Shown piece by piece: positions 26,508 to 37,413 of a stretch of 64,000 nt of DNA (within the stretch, counting starts at the first letter, position 1; every line of letters starts with the position of its first letter). The notes beneath the pieces were generated by a model that worked only from the letters and a program-made list of their open reading frames with translations, searched no databases and was not told the DNA's origin. The translations under genes and the position numbers were made by a program. The DNA comes from Aureimonas flava. GTDB taxonomy: Bacteria > Pseudomonadota > Alphaproteobacteria > Rhizobiales > Rhizobiaceae. Location: NCBI RefSeq assembly GCF_003583935.1, contig NZ_QYRN01000012.1, positions 1-64,000 on the forward strand, read 5' to 3'.

Positions 26508-27149
26508 CTAGAGCCCGACCTCGAAGCCCGCCGCCGTCTTGGCGCGGATCTCCTCCAGCGTCACGCCGTCGGCGAGCTCGATCAGGGTCAGCCGCTCCGG
26601 CCCCTTGCGCTCCACGGTGAAGACGCCGAGGTCGGTGATCACGAGGTCGGCGACGCGCGCGCCCGTCAGCGGCAGGGTGCAGGCGGGCAGGAGCTTCGAT
26701 TCGCCCTTGGCCTCGTGCTCCATCACGACCACCACGCGCTTGACGCCGGCCACGAGGTCCATCGCCCCGCCCATGCCCTTGACCATCTTGCCGGGGATCA
26801 TCCAGTTGGCGAGGTCGCCGTTGGCCGCCACCTGCATGGCGCCGAGGATGGACAGGTCGATGTGACCGCCCCGGATCATCGCGAAACTGTCGGCCGAGGA
26901 GAAGAAGCTCGTCATCGGCAGTTCGGTGATGGTCTGCTTGCCGGCGTTGATGAGGTCGGCGTCCTCCTCGCCCTCGAACGGGAACGGGCCCATGCCGAGC
27001 ATGCCGTTCTCGGACTGGAGCACCACCTCGATCCCGTCCGGGATGTGGTTGGCCACCAGCGTCGGAATACCGATGCCGAGATTGACGTAGAACCCGTCCT
27101 CGAGCTCGCGGGCGGCGCGGGCCGCCATCTGGTCGCGCGTCCAGGCCAT
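26508..27149 (-). CDS. 3-oxoacid CoA-transferase subunit B
   Basis: 213 residues of CoA-transferase family I beta subunit. The catalytic glutamate is in [14 protein letters not shown] (near residue 46), preceded by [27 protein letters not shown] and GAMDLVAG follow. It moves CoA from succinyl-CoA to a 3-oxoacid (acetoacetate or 3-oxoadipate). No thiolase or pca genes are adjacent, so SCOT and PcaJ activities cannot be told apart. ATG shares a base with the subunit A stop (TGATG). Confidence 0.92.
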
Positions 27150-27886
27150 CAGACGTCCTCCCCCGCGGCGGCCGGCGCGGCGGCCGTCTCGCGCCGACGC
27201 ACCGTGCGCTGCTCGATGTGCTTCTCCGGGCCGGCCACGTGGACGATGCGCTGCACGAAGATGCCCGGCGTGTGGATCTGGTCCGCGTCGATCGAGCCGA
27301 CCGGCACCAGGTGCTCGACCTCGGCCACCGTCGTCTTGGCGGCGGTGGCCATCATCGGATTGAAGTTGCGCGCCGTCTTCCGGTAGACGAGGTTTCCTTG
27401 CGCGTCGCCCGTGTGGGCGTGGACGATGGCGAGGTCGGCGAACAGCCCGCGCTCCATCACGTAGGCTTCGCCGTCGAACTCGCGCACCTCCTTGCCCTCG
27501 GCGATCAGCGTGCCGACGCCGGTGCGGGTGAAGAAGGCGGGGATGCCCGCGCCACCGGCCCGGATGCGCTCGGCGAGCGTGCCCTGCGGATTGAACTCCA
27601 GCTCCAGCTCGCCCGACAGGTACTGCTGGGCGAAGAGCTTGTTCTCGCCGACATAGGACGAGATCATCTTGGCGATCTGGCGGGTGGCGAGCAGCCGGCC
27701 GAGGCCGATCCCGTCGACGCCCGCGTTGTTGGAGATCACGGTCAGGCCCTTGACGCCGGACGCCTGCACCGCGTCGATCAGCGCCTCGGGAATGCCGCAC
27801 AGGCCGAAGCCGCCGGCCATGACCACCATGTCGTCGCGCAGGAGCCCGGCCAGGGCCTCCACCGCCGTCGAACGAACCTTCCGCAC
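27149..27886 (-). CDS. 3-oxoacid CoA-transferase subunit A
   Basis: 245 residues; family I alpha-subunit signatures [16 protein letters not shown] (near 25-40), [63 protein letters not shown] at 27886 is preferred because GGGAGG lies eight bases upstream and homologues begin shortly before the GGFG loop; the upstream ATG would add 34 basic residues overlapping the divergent regulator's leader. First gene of the two-gene operon, divergent from a PAS-LuxR regulator. Confidence 0.92.
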
Positions 27887-27978
27887 CGTCGCGCCTCCCG
27901 TCGCCGACCGCGCGAGGCGGCCTCCATGACGGAAGCTAGAGCTTGCCCGATGGCTGCGGCGAGTCGTATTTCTACGGC

Positions 27979-28560
27979 ATGTCCGCACTGCCCCGGCGTC
28001 CCGGCGAACCCGACACGGCCCCGCGCTTCGCGCTGGCGGAGCTGCCCGTGCCGCTGGTGTTCGCCACCCATCGCATCATCCGCGACTGCAACGCCGAGTT
28101 CGCCGCGCTGTTCGGCTTCGAGCGGGCCGAGCTCCTGGATACCAGCTTCTCGCGCCTCTATCCCCGGCTCGACGACTTCGTGCGCACCGGCGAGATGTGG
28201 CGCAGCCACCTGCCCGGAGGCCAGGTGTTCCAGGACGAGCGCATCATGCGCGGGGCGATGGGGCGGCGCTTCTGGGCCCGCGTCAACGGGCGCTCGCGCC
28301 GCGCGGCGGACCCGTTCGCGGAGGCGATCTATTGCTTCGAGCCGCTGAACCGCCCGGTCTCGGGGGCGACGCTGCGGCTCAGCGGGCGCCAGCGCCAGAT
28401 CCTGGCGCTGGTGGCGCAGGGGCGCACCAATGCCGAGATCGCGGCGGCCGTCGGCCTGTCGCGGCGCACGGTGGAGGCGCACCGCCTGCGCCTGTCGCGC
28501 GCGGCGGGCGTGCGCAACGGGGCCGAGCTCGTGGCCTGGTTCCTGGCGGACGGCGGCTGA
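27979..28560 (+). CDS. PAS-LuxR transcriptional regulator
   Basis: 193 residues: PAS-like sensor domain (about 20-110, PLVFATHRIIRDCNAEFAALFGFERAELL) and C-terminal LuxR HTH (about 130-190, LSGRQRQILALVAQGRTNAEIAAAVGLSRRTVEAHRLRL). No receiver, so activity likely depends on a ligand or cofactor in the PAS domain. The ATG at 27979 is used; a TTG 12 codons upstream is possible. Divergent from the CoA-transferase genes with 92 bp between them, so it probably controls ketone-body-type metabolism there; CGTA-TTTC-TACG just before its start could be an operator (weak). Confidence 0.85.
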   Translation: MSALPRRPGEPDTAPRFALAELPVPLVFATHRIIRDCNAEFAALFGFERAELLDTSFSRLYPRLDDFVRTGEMWRSHLPGGQVFQDERIMRGAMGRRFWARVNGRSRRAADPFAEAIYCFEPLNRPVSGATLRLSGRQRQILALVAQGRTNAEIAAAVGLSRRTVEAHRLRLSRAAGVRNGAELVAWFLADGG

Positions 28561-30166: not shown

Positions 30167-31900
30167 TCAGGCGGGCCCGGCCACGATCCGGGCCAGCGCC
30201 TCGCCCGCCTGGAGATAGGCGCCGGGCGTCGCCTGCAGCGCGACGGTGCCCGCGACGGGGGCCGTCACCTGCGTCTCCATCTTCATCGCCTCCATCACGG
30301 CGACGACCTGGCCGGCCTCCACCGCCGCGCCGTCCTCGACCCGCCATCCCTGAAGCGTGCCCGCGACCGGCGCGGCCACGAGGCCGGGATCGGCGGGCGC
30401 GGCCTCCGGCGCGTCGGCCGCCGCCGACGAGGGCGCGCCGAGCCGCGACAGGAGCGCGGCCGGCAGGCCGAGGACGTGGCGCCGTCCGTCGATCTCCACG
30501 GGCAGGCGCAGCATGTCGGGCCCGTCCACCGGCTCGGGCCGCGCGGCGGCGGCGAGATCGGTGGCGAAGTCGGTCTCGATCCAGCGGGTGTGGACGCGGA
30601 AGGTCTCGCCCGCGAAGTCCTCCGCCTCCACCACCGCGCGGTGGAACGGCAGGACGGTGGCGACGCCCTCCACCGCGAACTCGGCGAGCGCGCGGCGGGC
30701 ACGGGCGAGCGCCTCAGCGCGGGTCGGCGCGGTGACCACCAGCTTGGCCATCATGGAATCGAAGTGGCCGGGGATCACCGAGCCGGACACGACCCCCGCA
30801 TCGACCCGCACGCCCGGCCCGGACGGCGGCTCGAAGCGCACGACCGCGCCCGGCGTCGGCAGGAAGCCGCGCGCCGGATCCTCCGCGTTGATGCGGAACT
30901 CGATCGAATGGCCGCGTGGGGAGGGCGTCTCGCGCAGCCGCAGCGGCTCGCCGTCGGCGATGCGCAGCTGCTCCACCACCAGGTCGAGGCCCGTGGTCTC
31001 CTCCGTCACCGGGTGCTCGACCTGGAGCCGGGTGTTGACCTCCAGGAACGAGATCGTGCCGTCGGCGCCCAGGAGGAACTCCACCGTGCCGGCGCCCACG
31101 TAGCCGGCCTCGGCGCACACGGCGCGCGCGCCCTCGTGGATGCGCGCGCGCTGCTCGGGCGTCAGGAAGGGGGCGGGCGCCTCCTCCACCAGCTTCTGGT
31201 TGCGGCGCTGGAGCGAGCAGTCGCGCGTGCCCACCACCAGCACCGTGCCGTGCCGGTCCGCCAGCACCTGCGCCTCGACGTGGCGCGGCCGGTCCAGGAA
31301 GCGCTCCACGTAGCACTCGCCGCGCCCGAAGGCCCCCTCGGCCTCGCGCGTGGCGGAGGCGAAGAGCTCCTCCACCTCGCCGAGGCTCCAGGCGACCTTC
31401 ATGCCCCGGCCGCCGCCGCCGAAGGCCGCCTTGATGGCGATCGGCAGCCCGTGCGCCTCGGCGAAGGCCAGCGCCTCGGCGCCGTCGCGCACCGGCCCGT
31501 CGGAACCGGGCACCAGCGGCGCGCCGACGCGGGCCGCGATCTCGCGGGCGCGCGTCTTGTCGCCCAGGGCCTCGATCACCGAAGCGTCCGGTCCGATCCA
31601 GATCAGCCCCGCCTCCACCACGGCGCGCGCGAATTCGGGGCGCTCGGACAGGAAGCCGTAGCCCGGATGCACCGCGTCGGCGCCGGACCGGCGCGCCACG
31701 TCCAGGAGCTTGGCGATGTCGAGATAGGTCTCGGCCGGTGCGTTGCCGCCGAGGCCGTGCGCCTCGTCGGCGTGGCGCACGAAGGGGGCGTCGGCGTCGC
31801 AGTCGGCATAGACCGCGACCGAGCGCACGCCGCGGTCGCGGCAGGCCCGCACGATGCGCAGGGCGATCTCGCCGCGATTGGCGATCAGGACTTTCTTCAT
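30167..31900 (-). CDS. Biotin carboxylase fused to biotin carboxyl carrier domain, in a 5-oxoprolinase-type operon
   Basis: 577 residues: biotin carboxylase (about 1-445; [32 protein letters not shown]-grasp loop [35 protein letters not shown]) and C-terminal biotinyl domain (about 500-577) with biotinylated Lys540 in [10 protein letters not shown]. Such proteins usually serve acyl-CoA carboxylases, but no carboxyltransferase subunit is present. Instead it follows, by 7 bp, a PxpB-PxpC fusion, whose two domains are homologous to the carboxyltransferase half of urea carboxylase. Together they would make a split urea-carboxylase-like enzyme (inference). Last gene of the operon. Confidence 0.9.
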
Positions 31901-31907
31901 GGTGGAC

Positions 31908-33518
31908 CTACGGGCGTTCGGGTTCGATCTCGGCGAAGGGCCGGATCACGTGGAAGCGGATGCGCGCGCCCACGGGGAGCTGCGCGGCGAGGTCGAGGTG
32001 GTGCTCCGCCAGGGTCGCGATCACCGGATAGCCGCCGGTCAGCGGATGGTCGGCCATGAACAGCACCGGCTGGCCGTCGTGGGGCACCTGGATCGCGCCG
32101 TTGGCGGTGCCCTCGCTCGGCAGTTCCGCCGCCGGGTCGCGGCGCTCCAGCGGCCTCTCGCCCCGGATGCGCAGGCCGACGCGGTTGGACAGCGGCGTGA
32201 CGGTCCACTCCTGGGCGGTCAACGTCTCGACGCCGCGCGGGGTGAACCACTCCGTGCGCGGTCCCATCACGATGTCCAGCACCACCGTCTCGCCGGCGGC
32301 GGGCAGACGGGCCGGCGCGGGTTCGGGATCGCCCACGGCCGGGCCGCCGACGCGCGGCCGGATCGCCAGCCGGTCGCCCGCCGCGACCGGTGGCGGGCCG
32401 AGGCGGGCGAGCGAATCCACCGAGGCCGAGCCGAGAACCGGTTCGACCGCGAAGCCGCCCCGGGCGGCCAGATAGGTGCGCAGGCCACGGCTCGGCGCCA
32501 CGAGGGCGACCCGGTCGCCCGGCTCCAGCGACACGGGCCGGCCGGCCGGCGCCACGCGGCGCCGACCGGCCGCGTCGCGGATCTCCAGAGCGGCGTCCGT
32601 GCCGGCCAGGGCCACCACGGCGGCGCCGTCGGCCTTGAAGCGGAAGCCCCCCCCTACGATCTCCAGCGCCGGCGTGCCCGGCGGGTTACCGACGAGGCGG
32701 TTGCCAGCGTGGAGCGCCGACCGGTCCAGCGCGCCGGCGGCCGAGACGCCCTGCGCCGCCTGCCCCGGCCGCCCGTCGTCCTGGAACAGCGGGGGCATCG
32801 GCGCGTCGCTCACCCGCAGGCTCGTGCCGCCATGCGGCGCGGCCGGCGCCGTAGGCGCGCCACGCGCGGCCTCGCGCGCGGCGATCGCATCGAAGGCGCC
32901 CCGGTCGGCGAGCGGCGTGAAGCGCACGCGCGTGCCCGGCTGGAACAGGGCCGCCGGCTCGCGCGAGAGGTCGAACATGCGCAGCGGCGTCGTGCCGATG
33001 AGCTGCCAGCCGCCCGGCCCCTCCTGGGGATAGACGCCGGCGAAGTGTCCGGCCAGCGCCACCGTGCCCGCCGGAATGCGGGTGCGCGGGCTCTGGCGCC
33101 GCGCCACGTGGAGCGCCGGGTCGCCGTCCACCAGGTAGCCGAAGCCGGGCGCGAAGCCGGTGAAGGCGACGGTGAACTCGCAGGCCGTGTGCCGCGCGAC
33201 CACCTCGTCGGGCGCAAGGCCGGTGAGCCGCGCGACCTCGGCCAGGTCCTCGCCGTCGTAGAGCGTCGGGATCTCCACGAGACGCTCGGACGGGGCGGCC
33301 CTCGCCGACAGGTCGCGGGCACGCAGGTCGGCGGCGAACGCGCCGAGGTCCGGCGGCGCGCCCGGCCGGAAGCGCACCAGAAGCGTGCGCGCGGCCGGCA
33401 CGATCTCCTCGATTGCGGCCAGGGGACGCGCCTCCAGCGAGGCGAACAGCGCCAGCGTCTCGTCGAGGTCGGCGAGCTCGACCAGGACCGAGCGGAGGCT
33501 CACGGGAAGGATGCGCAT
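31908..33518 (-). CDS. pxpBC: 5-oxoprolinase subunits B and C fused (KipI-KipA / AHS1-AHS2)
   Basis: 536 residues. Residues about 1-220 are PxpB/KipI (AHS1; [21 protein letters not shown], then [20 protein letters not shown]) and about 255-530 are PxpC/KipA (AHS2; [61 protein letters not shown]). PxpABC hydrolyses 5-oxoproline to glutamate with ATP; in most bacteria B and C are separate. ATG at 33518 is chosen over one 22 codons upstream that would overlap the previous gene. Spaced 10 bp after the ycsI-like gene. Confidence 0.93.
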
Positions 33519-33528
33519 GGGCGGCTTC

Positions 33529-34332
33529 TCAGACGTGGTAGGCGGCGTCGGGAACGTCGGTGACGAACATGTGTCCGGGCGCATGGGTCACGGCGAAGGG
33601 CACGCGCGAGGCCATCACGGCGGCTTGGGGCGTGACGCCGCAGGCCCAGAACACGGGCACCTCGCCCGGCTCGACGCGGACCGGATCGCCGAAGTCGGGG
33701 CGCGCGAGATCGGCGATGCCGAGCCCCGCGGGGTCGCCGACATGGACGGGCGCGCCGTGCACGGCGGGGAAGCGGCCGCTGATCAGGGCGGCATCGGCCA
33801 CCCGCCCGGCGGGGATCGGGCGCATGGACACGACCATCGGACCCTGGAGGCGCCCCGCCGGCCGGCAGGGGCGGTTGGTGAGGTACATCGGCACGTTGGT
33901 GCCGTCCGCGATGTGGCGCACCTCGATGCCCGCCTCCTGGAGCGGCGTCTCGAAGGTGAAGGAGCAGCCGATCAGGAAGGTGACGAGGTCGCCGGCCGCC
34001 TCGAAGGCGGCGGCGGCGTCGGGCACCTCGGCGGCGAGCGCGCCGTCGCGCCACACCCGGTAGAGCGGGATGTCGCGCGCGACGTCGGCGCCCTCGGCGA
34101 GCACGGTGGCGCGCGAGCCGGGGTCGGTGACGTCCAGGACGGGGCAGCTCCTGGGGTTGCGCTGGGCGTAGAGCAGGAAGTCGAAGGCCCAGTCGCGCGG
34201 CAGCGCGATCATGTTGGCCTGCGTCAGGCCCGGCGCGACGCCGGCGGTGGGCCGAACCAGGCCGGCGCGATAGCGGGCGCGCGCGGCGCGGCCCGCCTCG
34301 CGCAGGAGCTCGCTCTTGGACGGTGCGCTCAC
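33529..34332 (-). CDS. YcsI/DUF1445 putative hydro-lyase
   Basis: 267 residues of the DUF1445 (D-glutamate cyclase-like) family: [70 protein letters not shown] and [14 protein letters not shown]. Bacillus YcsI lies in the same ycsFGI-kip operon. Mammalian relatives turn D-glutamate into 5-oxo-D-proline, so a link to oxoproline stereoisomers is reasonable but unproven. GTG at 34332 has GGGGGAGGAG just upstream, overlapping the end of pxpA's 3' region. Confidence 0.9.
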
Positions 34333-34346
34333 CGGCTCCTCCCCCC

Positions 34347-35120
34347 TCAGGCCGCCGCGAAGGGGCGCACCGCGACCCCGTCGGCTTCCAGGCGCTCGCG
34401 CACGGCCGCGGCGATCCGCACCGCGCCGGGACTGTCGCCGTGGACGCAGATGGAATCGGCCTCCAGCCGGATCACGGAGCCGTCCACGGCCTCGATCTCG
34501 CCGGTGGCCGCGAGCCTTGCCATGCGCTCGGCGACCAGGGCGGGGTCGTGGATCACCGCGCCCGCCTCGCGGCGCGAGACCAGCGTGCCCGCCGGCGTGT
34601 AGGCGCGGTCGGCGAAGGCCTCCGACACCGTGCGCAGGCCCGCGTCCCGCGCCAGCGCCACCAGCGGCGCGTTGGCGAGGCACATCAGCACCAAGGAGGG
34701 ATCGGCCGCCAGGATGGCCTCCACCACGTCGCGGCCCTGCCGCGCGTCGGCTGCGATCGTGTTGTAGAGCGCGCCGTGCGGCTTGACGTAGGTGACGCGC
34801 GTGCCGGCGGCGGCGGCGGCGGCCAGGCCCTTGAGCGCGCCGATCTGGTAGACCACGTCGGCGCGCAGGTCCTCGGAGGCGACGTCCATGGCGCGGCGGC
34901 CGAAGCCGCCGCGATCGGGATAGGAGACGTGGGCGCCCACCGCCACGCCGCGCTGCGCCGCCGCCCGCAGCGTGCGCAGGATGCCGGCCGGGTCGCCCGC
35001 GTGGAAGCCGCAGGCGACGTTCGCCGAGGAGACGAGACCCAGCATGGTCTCGTCCTCGCCCATGGTCCAGGCGCCGTAGCTCTCGCCGAGGTCGCTGTTG
35101 AGATCGATCGCTTGGGTCAT
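34347..35120 (-). CDS. pxpA: 5-oxoprolinase subunit A (LamB/YcsF family)
   Basis: 257 residues: [65 protein letters not shown] and [10 protein letters not shown] are the LamB/YcsF signatures with conserved Asp and His residues of a (beta/alpha)-barrel metal-type site. It is the third subunit of PxpABC 5-oxoprolinase. ATG at 35120, 17 bp after the transporter gene. Cytosolic. Confidence 0.95.
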
Positions 35121-35137
35121 GCGCCGGGCTCCCGGGG

Positions 35138-36403
35138 TCACATCGAAAGGAAGGCGAAGATGGGGCCGATCGACCGGTAGCCCATCCACCAGGTCAGCGC
35201 GCAGGTGAGAACGCCGAGAACGGTGAGCCAGAGCGGATGGCGGTAGCCCGGCATCAGGTCGGGACGCGCCCAGGCCGCGTAGATGAAGATGGTGAGGCCG
35301 ATCGGCAGGATCAGGCCGTTGAAGCCGCCCACGAAGACCAGCAGCGCCGCCGGCGCGGTGCCGATGACAAGGTAGGCGGCCAGCGAGACGGCGATGAAGA
35401 CCACCGTCGACCAGGCGCGGCCGCGCTCGGTGAGCCGGGGGTTGAACGTGTTGAAGAAGGTGACCGACGTGTAGGCCGCGCCGATCACGCTGGTGATCGC
35501 CGCCGCCCACAGGACCACGCCGAAGAGGCGCAGGCCGAGTTCGCCCGTCGCGGCGTAGAAGGCCTGGGCGGCGGGGTTGGCAGCCTGTCCCGAGAGGTCC
35601 AGCGTCACGCCGCCGGCGACGACGCCGAGCACCGCCAGGAACAGGACGAATCGCATCACGCCCGTGACCGCGATGCCCGACAGGGCGGCGCGCGTCACCG
35701 GGCCGAGGTTCTCGATGCCCACCGTGCCCTTGTCGAGCATCCGGTGCGCGCCGGCATAGGTGATGTAGCCGCCCACCGTGCCGCCGACGATCGTGGTGAT
35801 GGTGGCGAAGTTGATCTCGTCGGGCCAGACGGTCTGGCGCAGCGCCTCGCCCACGGGCGGCGCCGAGGTGAAGGCGACGAACAGCGTCAGCGCGATCATC
35901 ACGAGGCCCAGAACGACGATGATGCGGTCCACCGCGACGCCGGCCCGCTTGGACGAGAAGATGCCGATGGCCACCAGCGCCGAGAGCGCGCCGCCGATCT
36001 TGGGGTCGAGCCCGACCAGCGCGTTGAGGCCGAGGCCCGAGCCGGCGATGTTGCCGATGTTGAAGATCAGGCCGCCGAAGATGATCAGCACCGCCAGGAC
36101 GTAGCCCGCGCCCGGGATGGCGGCGTTGGCGATGTCGGAGGCGCGCATGCGCGTCACCGCGACGATGCGCCAGATGTTGAGCTGCACCACGAAGTCGATC
36201 AGGACGGAGGCGAGGATGCCGAAGGCGAAGGCGGCGCCCATGGTGGCCGTGAAGGTCGCGGTCTGGGTGATGAAGCCGGGGCCGATGGCCGAGGTCGCCA
36301 TCAGGAACACGGCCGCGACGAGCGACGAGCGGCGGTCGGCGGCCGTTTGGACCAGGCCGGAAGGGGCCGGCGCGTCGGGGCGCCCGGAGGTGGCGGAATC
36401 CAT
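35138..36403 (-). CDS. YcsG-type Nramp-fold transporter of the pxp operon
   Basis: 421 residues, about eleven transmembrane helices. It belongs to the Nramp superfamily by overall layout and matches Bacillus YcsG by its place beside pxpA. However TM1 reads [18 protein letters not shown], without the Asp-Pro-Gly-Asn metal motif, and the TM6 region ([14 protein letters not shown]) lacks Met-Pro-His. Metal transport is therefore unlikely; uptake of 5-oxoproline or a related substrate is a reasonable guess from context. GAGGAGA precedes the ATG. First gene of the five-gene operon, divergent from a GntR regulator. Confidence 0.88.
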
Positions 36404-36738: not shown

Positions 36739-37413
36739 TTGAGCCCTGTCGAGCCCGCTTCCCCCGCGCTGACGGTACGCCTCGCCGAGGCGCTGCGCGA
36801 CCGCGTGATCGCCGGCGAGCTCCTGCCGGGCCAGCGCCTGTCGGAGACCGCCCTGGCGGCGGACCTGTCGGTGTCGCGCAACACGCTGCGCGAGGCGTTC
36901 CGCCTCCTGACCAAGGACGGGCTCCTGCGCCACCAGCCCAACCGGGGCGTCTTCGTGACGGTGCCCGACCATGCGGCGGTGATCGACATCTACCGCGTCC
37001 GCCGGCTGGTGGAGTGCCGGGCGCTCGCCGAGGCGCAGCCGGGCCATCCCTCGATCGGGCGCATGCGCGCGGCGGTGGACCGGGCGACCGGAGCTCGCGA
37101 GGCGGGCGACTGGCAGGCGGTGGGCAGCGCCAACATGGCGTTCCACGCCGCGATCGTGGACCTGGCCGACAGCGCCCGGCTGGCCGCCTTCTACGCCCAG
37201 GTCGCGGCGGAGCTGCGCCTCGCCTTCGGGCTCCTGGACGCGCCGGAGGCGCTCCATGCCCCGTTCATCGACAGCAACCGGGCGATCGTGGAACGGCTGG
37301 AGGACGGCCGCGCGGGCGAGGCCGCCGCGCTGCTCGACGCCTATCTCCAGCGCGCCGAGCGGATCATCCTCGGCGCGCTGTCGCGCCGCGCGGACCCGGC
37401 CCCGCGCGGCTAG
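36739..37413 (+). CDS. GntR-family (FadR/FCD) regulator, probable regulator of the pxp operon
   Basis: 224 residues: GntR winged HTH (about 10-75; RVIAGELLPGQRLSETALAADLSVSRNTLREAFRLLTKDGLLRHQPNRGVFV) and an FCD ligand domain (about 90-215; AFHAAIVDLADSARL, with metal-binding His/Asp expected). The start is a TTG at 36739, the only start codon in frame close to the HTH; the ribosome site is weak. It occupies the place that KipR takes in Bacillus. Divergent orientation to the ycsG-pxp operon suggests control by 5-oxoproline or a related acid. Confidence 0.83.
   Translation: MSPVEPASPALTVRLAEALRDRVIAGELLPGQRLSETALAADLSVSRNTLREAFRLLTKDGLLRHQPNRGVFVTVPDHAAVIDIYRVRRLVECRALAEAQPGHPSIGRMRAAVDRATGAREAGDWQAVGSANMAFHAAIVDLADSARLAAFYAQVAAELRLAFGLLDAPEALHAPFIDSNRAIVERLEDGRAGEAAALLDAYLQRAERIILGALSRRADPAPRG

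Follow-up and report, generated by a model that had tools for sequence, protein, structure and literature searches.

The window analysed here, a stretch of 64,000 nucleotides of Aureimonas flava DNA (contig NZ_QYRN01000012.1, positions 1 to 64,000 of the forward strand), carries on its minus strand a run of closely spaced genes in which a fusion of the 5-oxoprolinase subunits PxpB and PxpC is followed by a protein that joins biotin carboxylase (BC) to biotin carboxyl carrier protein (BCCP). This BC-linked cassette is real and widespread, and BC and PxpBC are associated far above chance. The best explanation of the cassette is a biotin-dependent 5-oxoprolinase, a reading that we judge rather probable and in which we infer the carboxyl transfer, the nitrogen acceptor and the 5-oxoproline substrate alike. 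Its mode of action is most likely that of a split urea carboxylase with a lactam as its target, and it would be best classed as a biotin-linked variant of PxpABC.

The cassette and its linkage across genomes

The gene order on the minus strand, with short gaps, is NRAMP-family transporter, pxpA, D-glutamate cyclase, PxpB-PxpC fusion and BC-BCCP. A sequence-only reading of this DNA had placed pxpA, the fusion and BC-BCCP in one operon, and everything it described is present at the right coordinates, including the 7 bp between the last two genes (31901-31907) and the lack of an acyl-CoA carboxyltransferase among the operon genes; it had omitted the D-glutamate cyclase and the transporter. The fusion (31908..33518, minus strand, 536 aa) comprises the Pfam domains CT_C_D (residues 1-191, 4.5e-61) and CT_A_B (residues 257-523, 4.1e-78). 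BC-BCCP (30167..31900, minus strand, 577 aa) has Biotin_carb_N, CPSase_L_D2, Biotin_carb_C and Biotin_lipoyl, all four above Pfam cut-offs, and the AMKM motif with Lys540, as that reading had it. Its two highest-scoring matches in solved structures are 5mlk ("Acetyl-CoA carboxylase", 710.5 bits) and AccA3, the mycobacterial alpha3 subunit (710.1 bits); the next one scores 481.6.

The fusion falls under the curated NCBIfam equivalog cut-offs for PxpB (126.5 vs 145.55) and PxpC (157.6 vs 500), and also under that of the domain model TIGR00724 (215.7 vs 230.2). Homologues of PxpA, PxpB and PxpC are all found in the one operon, as in the PxpABC systems of Escherichia coli (pxpBCA), Bacillus subtilis and Corynebacterium glutamicum (pxpTABC). 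The domains of urea carboxylase (BC, BCCP and CT_A_B/CT_C_D) are all there too, in two chains, and the single-chain model TIGR02712 gives 507 bits for the BC part and 111.5 bits for the carboxyltransferase part vs its 1303.85. When an alignment-based AF2 model of PxpBC (mean pLDDT 90.3) was searched with Foldseek, all hits with E up to 1e-10, 9yx5 included, were PxpBC-type proteins or the Kluyveromyces lactis urea carboxylase/amidolyase; a single-sequence prediction had been set aside for its mean pLDDT of 35.2. The PxpB-PxpC fusion, which shares its fold with the carboxyltransferase half of urea carboxylase, is our proposed carboxyltransferase.

We sought PF02682 in 398 Pseudomonadota genomes, found it in 163, and took the best 150 places as a census, weaker ones lying outside it; the 149 places besides that of the window were taken with their flanks and scored by profiles built from the window genes. 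A locus counts as "no BC" if neither BC nor BCCP lies within 4 kb on the PxpB strand, and the description of such loci as ATP-type rests on their likeness to E. coli. The census holds 123 unfused loci with neither BC nor BCCP, 17 fusions with both and seven unfused loci with both, the rest being a fusion with neither, a locus with a BCCP-like match alone and a urea carboxylase. Among the seven unfused BC-linked loci, one (L236) was scored from contig-end fragments and one (L267) is urea-carboxylase-like, grouping with urea carboxylase; L061 was scored as no BC although PxpA, BC and BCCP sit about 3.3 kb off on the opposite strand.

The search for co-occurrence of BC-BCCP and PxpBC that the sequence-only reading had proposed bears out the association. 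Of the 18 fusions in the census, 17 have BC and BCCP within 4 kb on the same strand, and fusions with BC-BCCP make up 76 of the 80 named relatives; of the other four, L102 has the BC part only, at a contig end, and three have neither so placed. The two sets overlap in some genomes (e.g., L056 and L160). The seven relatives closest to the window PxpBC are all Aureimonas (76-83% identity). The named relatives also include two loci of Labedella (L176, L179), which we take to be Actinomycetota, so that the cassette type is not restricted to one phylum. Throughout the 93 fused BC-linked loci the biotinyl motif is kept (92 AMKM, one VMKM), as are the BC motifs E-N-x-R-x-QVEH (93/93), HxExQ (93/93) and RxQK (91/93).

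The other genes of the run also accompany the fusion. In the census, pxpA is present at 17/17 BC-linked fusions vs 101/123 unfused no-BC loci (p 0.07), the NRAMP gene at 6/17 vs 3/123 (p 9e-5) and the D-glutamate cyclase at 6/17 vs 9/123 (Fisher p 0.003); among the 76 named BC-linked fusions, pxpA accompanies all and the cyclase 60. At L134, matches to D-glutamate cyclase and PxpB-PxpC fall in a single open frame of 833 codons, which may be a triple fusion or owe its length to chance read-through.

The cassette is also carried by plasmids. Relatives of PxpBC (E up to 1e-60) are found in 191 of the 72,556 records of a plasmid collection (95 Klebsiella, 24 Rhizobium, 12 Shinella, 12 Sinorhizobium, 10 Paracoccus, 7 Enterobacter, 5 Thioclava and others), and the BC query (E up to 1e-130) finds 217 (95 Klebsiella, 23 Rhizobium, 12 Shinella, 12 Sinorhizobium, 11 Paracoccus, 7 Enterobacter, 5 Thioclava, 16 Streptomyces and others), the two sets being compared by genus counts rather than record by record. 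All five plasmid regions inspected have PxpA, PxpBC and BC-BCCP, four have the NRAMP gene and two the D-glutamate cyclase. A Klebsiella plasmid typed as conjugative (L277; NZ_CP057460.1, 11923-25386) has the whole cassette, in the order GntR, NRAMP, PxpA, "putative hydro-lyase" (D-glutamate cyclase by Pfam), "urea amidolyase family protein" and "biotin carboxylase N-terminal domain-containing protein".

Co-inheritance and the residues of the BC-linked type

In the trees the BC-linked fusions fall into one PxpBC clade, which stands apart from the PxpBC of E. coli. In a FastTree reconstruction of PxpB and PxpC (166 rows), a branch of 35 rows with starred support of 100 holds 30 BC-linked fusions, the unfused L230 with its BC-BCCP, the fusions L174, L177 and L178, and the pair MSMEG_0435-0436 of Mycobacterium smegmatis, sister of the BC-type clade. 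A mixture-model tree of 50 rows gives the BC-type group (19 rows) starred support of 99. Both came with warnings of long branches or unusual composition, the window being among the odd-composition rows of the mixture-model tree, and they hold 30 of the 93 fused BC-linked loci (FastTree PxpBC tree, like the BC tree) or 15 (mixture model). Urea carboxylase, unplaced in the FastTree reconstruction, joins the BC-type branch together with L267 in the mixture-model tree only, at 94, not starred. L267 has separate PxpB-like, PxpC-like, BCCP and BC genes and is perhaps a split urea-carboxylase-like system, its PxpB/PxpC pair grouping with urea carboxylase.

The partners follow the same division. In the BC tree, from which rows shorter than 300 residues were dropped, 31 of the 42 rows, window included, form one clade with starred support of 100, and the other BCs of the host and urea carboxylase lie outside it. 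The PxpA tree (usable sequences in 148 of 166 candidates) has a clade of 33 rows, again with starred support of 100, in which the window PxpA stands with those of other BC-linked fusions. Distances in the PxpBC and BC trees are correlated over 29 loci (Spearman 0.75), and none of 2000 permutations gave a value as high.

We found 22 PxpBC columns that separate 30 fused BC-linked from 121 unfused no-BC loci, the "partial" class (L102, L188) being excluded from the residue counts. The window's residues at these columns include Phe159, Pro492 and Val499; the other type has Gln at the first site, and Gln and Lys or Arg at the other two, which lie within QTTGGYPK. Among the no-BC loci, Gln stands at the Phe159 site in 106 of 123, Gln at the Pro492 site in 101 rows, and Lys or Arg at the Val499 site in 108 rows. 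Over the 22 columns E. coli has no BC-type residues vs 17 of the other type. PxpA has only three discriminating columns, one of them beside an invariant His (GAHVS vs GAHPS), and the window PxpA keeps all 22 polar residues that are near-invariant across the 148 PxpA rows. A changed activation module with a near-unchanged hydrolase is the trace that one would expect of an altered activation chemistry, as far as alignments can suggest it.

Another kind of BC stands near PxpABC genes. At L061, L062, L064, L065 and L204, AccB/AccC-like genes adjoin pxpB, pxpC and pxpA or lie close by; PxpB and PxpC are unfused there and have mostly E. coli-like residues (2 BC-type vs 14 other at each of L062, L064 and L065; 0 vs 16 at L204), and the BCs of these loci form a separate clade (starred support of 95) next to the host AccC (91). 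The placement of all BC-linked PxpBC in one group was rejected (15 fused loci with L230, L204, L061, L062 and L065; p-AU 1e-49) in a test that left out L064 and L267 and whose group was set by gene linkage, though only once a first tree was in view. That the BCs are of two dissimilar kinds argues for separate recruitment, and the simplest reading would be that different biotin carboxylases were brought into PxpABC operons on at least two occasions, by convergence. An old BC link that was lost many times is a possible alternative, since trees alone do not separate gain from loss.

These observations bear on the idea that PxpBC keeps its own ATP-dependent phosphorylation and that BC-BCCP assists it otherwise, for instance as a source of carboxyphosphate or through carboxylation of the lactam oxygen. 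Such an arrangement would suit the loci where BC lies beside PxpBC with E. coli-like residues (L062, L064, L065, L204). Niehaus 2017 reportedly described PxpABC as ATP-dependent, without biotin. Phosphorylation is the mechanism assumed for PxpBC, and merely assumed, in a passage of PMC13274462, and passages of PMC8453981 weigh carboxyphosphate and carboxy-lactim routes for caprolactamase. Nevertheless, the biotinyl lysine, superfluous for a carboxyphosphate role, is kept at all 93 fused loci, and the residues usual at the Phe159, Pro492 and Val499 sites of no-BC loci are replaced in the BC type, which makes this idea rather improbable.

A deposited structure connects the M. smegmatis pair with a BC assembly. 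Chains V and W of PDB 9YX5 are among the solved sequence matches of PxpBC, and the same entry is listed for the alpha3 subunit; its title and molecule names, from which we know it, describe a long chain acyl-CoA carboxylase complex of M. smegmatis with MSMEG_0435-MSMEG_0436 bound. Given its sister position in the tree, a member of the sister lineage has thus been deposited in contact with a BC assembly. Like the cassette PxpBC, the pair (3MML, 9YX5) has mostly BC-type residues (14 of the 22, vs 4 of the other type); it is deposited bound to a BC complex holding alpha3. Unlike in the cassette, PxpB and PxpC are separate chains, and they are partnered by alpha3, a subunit of general acyl-CoA carboxylase, rather than by a dedicated BC-BCCP. 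Both genes rise about twofold under nitrogen limitation, according to a passage in PMC4617892.

The entry can also be read in favour of PxpBC as a regulator or inhibitor of BC, in the style of KipI and its kinase (B. subtilis KipI was deposited as "Kinase A inhibitor", 2zp2), because the pair is bound, by the title, to a complete acyl-CoA carboxylase complex; a related idea is that BC-BCCP serves an acyl-CoA carboxyltransferase elsewhere in the genome, a possibility that the sequence-only reading had raised. The genes of the host and of the cassette argue against this. Five of its proteins bear BC: AccC and pyruvate carboxylase (each above cut-off), two BC-BCCP proteins unnamed by NCBIfam, and that of the window. 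There are four PF01039 matches, of which two are long, one lying 3.6 kb from one unnamed BC-BCCP and one just upstream of the other; the two short ones elsewhere look like AccA and AccD, judging by position, strand and profile range. As all four can be assigned by position to other BCs, no acyl-CoA carboxyltransferase is left over for the window BC-BCCP. The cassette has its own BC and no such carboxyltransferase, and pxpA beside every BC-linked fusion, in the census as among the named relatives, points to catabolism. A regulatory or acyl-CoA role is thus very unlikely. The interpretation given in the sequence-only reading is supported in part. Its central idea, that BC serves PxpBC in place of an acyl-CoA carboxyltransferase, is well supported by the co-inheritance, the separate clades of BC and of PxpBC, 9YX5 and the PF01039 assignments, and the carboxyl transfer to the lactam is its putative step.

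The proposed reaction

The remaining genes suggest the substrate. pxpA (34347..35120, minus strand) encodes a LamB/YcsF family ring-opening hydrolase subunit (Pfam 2.3e-98; above the cut-off of NCBIfam NF003814, the PxpA subfamily). D-glutamate cyclase (33529..34332, minus strand, GTG start; PF07286, "putative hydro-lyase") matches Pfam at 2.5e-67 and exceeds the cut-off of NCBIfam NF003969, its product presumably being 5-oxo-D-proline. The NRAMP-family transporter (35138..36403, minus strand; Pfam Nramp 7e-16), with no NCBIfam match at E 0.001, is a probable 5-oxoproline uptake transporter of the PxpT/YcsG kind. Divergent from the operon lies a gene for a GntR/FCD transcriptional regulator (36739..37413, plus strand; Pfam GntR 1.6e-17, FCD 5.5e-15), which may correspond to PxpR, the sensor of 5-oxoproline; the annotations of L277, L279 and L281 likewise show a divergent GntR gene next to the cassette. 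About 2 kb past the end of BC-BCCP, beyond a plus-strand exonuclease-like gene, two adjacent genes for CoA-transferase subunits (PF01144) lie on the minus strand (26508-27988).

Passages of PMC13274462 describe pxpT, pxpABC and the 5-oxoproline-sensing GntR repressor PxpR, a divergent regulator, as the system for uptake and use of 5-oxoproline in C. glutamicum, and state that the NRAMP family is the one nearest to PxpT and YcsG, both of which are required for 5-oxoproline use. The window has the gene kinds of pxpR/pxpTABC plus two more, D-glutamate cyclase and BC-BCCP, and 5-oxoproline as substrate fits this published set. From the same gene kinds with BC-BCCP added, we propose that carboxybiotin is formed, that its carboxyl group is passed to the lactam and that PxpA opens the ring. 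5-oxoproline would be taken up by the NRAMP-type transporter or arise within the cell, where D-glutamate cyclase would supply the D-form. The BC domain would use ATP and bicarbonate to carboxylate the biotin on Lys540 of the BCCP domain, and this biotin would swing to carry the carboxyl to PxpBC. PxpBC would move it onto the lactam, most simply onto the ring nitrogen, and PxpA would hydrolyse the activated ring to N-carboxyglutamate, which would lose CO2 to give glutamate. The ring of 5-oxoproline, a damaged amino acid that 5-oxoprolinase recycles, would in this branch be activated by attached CO2 rather than by ATP alone.

The same biotin chemistry might act on another substrate, such as a different lactam, a cyclic amide or the D-form only (5-oxo-D-proline, hydantoin or 2-pyrrolidinone). 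The frequent D-glutamate cyclase, with its presumed product, would suit this, as would genome G379, where a BC-linked fusion and an unfused no-BC locus occur together (L048 and L183) and may differ in substrate. Yet the near-invariant polar residues of PxpA are kept, and the transporter, GntR regulator and PxpA match the set published for 5-oxo-L-proline in the cited passages of PMC13274462. The host has one PF02682 match, one PF03746 match and, in a family search, no match to Hydantoinase_B, so that, by these families, no 5-oxoprolinase other than the cassette can be recognised in it. We therefore regard another substrate as unlikely.

Several observations weigh against a biotin-dependent 5-oxoprolinase. 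The general base of urea carboxylase is Lys1605 in K. lactis (cited passage of PMC5770610), and this site is Arg in 93/93 BC-linked fusions and likewise in 123/123 no-BC loci (Arg140 in the window). Arg stands there in 226 of 227 aligned PxpB over four groups, the sole Lys being in a BC-linked unfused locus. Shared by both kinds of loci, it neither marks the BC type, an idea ruled out on this account, nor supports a urea-carboxylase chemistry. The BC-type residues are not those of urea carboxylase either, an equation ruled out by L269, which has 4 BC-type vs 7 other residues at the 22 columns. The AccB/AccC-like genes that adjoin unfused PxpB and PxpC with E. coli-like residues (L062, L064, L065, L204) imply that a BC link does not need BC-type residues. 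The strict Gly-rich loop pattern of BC fits only 29 of 93 loci (the later-motif pattern 90 of 93). The fusions L174, L177 and L178 belong to the clade and lack a BC within 4 kb on the same strand; a general biotin carboxylase might serve them in trans, much as AccA3 might serve in mycobacteria. The MSMEG_0435-0436 pair in 9YX5 could be a regulator. Finally, our search of the open literature, which went mainly by listings and covered few subscription journals, found no biochemistry on the BC-linked branch, and no paper on or described function for a biotin-dependent PxpABC.

If the biotin-dependent reading is extended beyond the window, there would be a second bacterial chemistry for opening 5-oxoproline (biotin carboxylation, then PxpA), reached at least twice with unrelated biotin carboxylases, by BC-BCCP with PxpBC and by AccB/AccC-like proteins with unfused PxpABC, and with mycobacteria using AccA3; this we consider quite possible, short of probable. 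A lead, and only that, comes from the old two-component enzyme of Pseudomonas putida, whose component A consists of six pairs of 64 and 51 kDa and component B of 82 kDa, as given in a passage of PMC8453981: these recall six BC-BCCP/PxpBC pairs (60.7 and 56.1 kDa) and three PxpA (26 kDa each). In the same source PxpA is probably a tetramer, at odds with the three-chain match to component B.

Relation to known enzymes

The cassette resembles several kinds of enzyme. With PxpABC it shares PxpA, PxpB and PxpC homologues, and with that of C. glutamicum also the NRAMP-type transporter and the divergent GntR regulator; it differs in the fusion of PxpB and PxpC, with scores below curated cut-offs, a separate clade and other residues at the 22 columns, and in its BC partner at nearly every locus seen. 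With urea carboxylase (K. lactis urea amidolyase, 3VA7/5I8I) it shares BC, BCCP and a carboxyltransferase fold made up of the same two parts; it differs by its two chains, by Arg140 in place of the general-base Lys, by the separate BC clade and by PxpA in the stead of allophanate hydrolase, of which there is none among the six cassette genes. The term "split urea carboxylase" thus holds as an analogy, not as membership, urea carboxylase also standing outside the PxpBC clade of the BC-linked fusions in both trees. Acyl-CoA carboxylase alpha subunits (AccA3 and others) have, like the cassette protein, BC and BCCP in one chain, and their carboxyltransferase partner is of the PF01039 type, absent from the window operon.

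A PxpBC branch with its own biotin carboxylase offers a direct test of what the fold shared with urea carboxylase does. If our reading is true, the cassette would add to the biotin enzymes a class whose substrate is a lactam. It would then suggest a function for genes whose annotation now goes no further than "urea amidolyase family protein" or "biotin carboxylase N-terminal domain-containing protein", and a role for the mycobacterial pair in PDB 9YX5.

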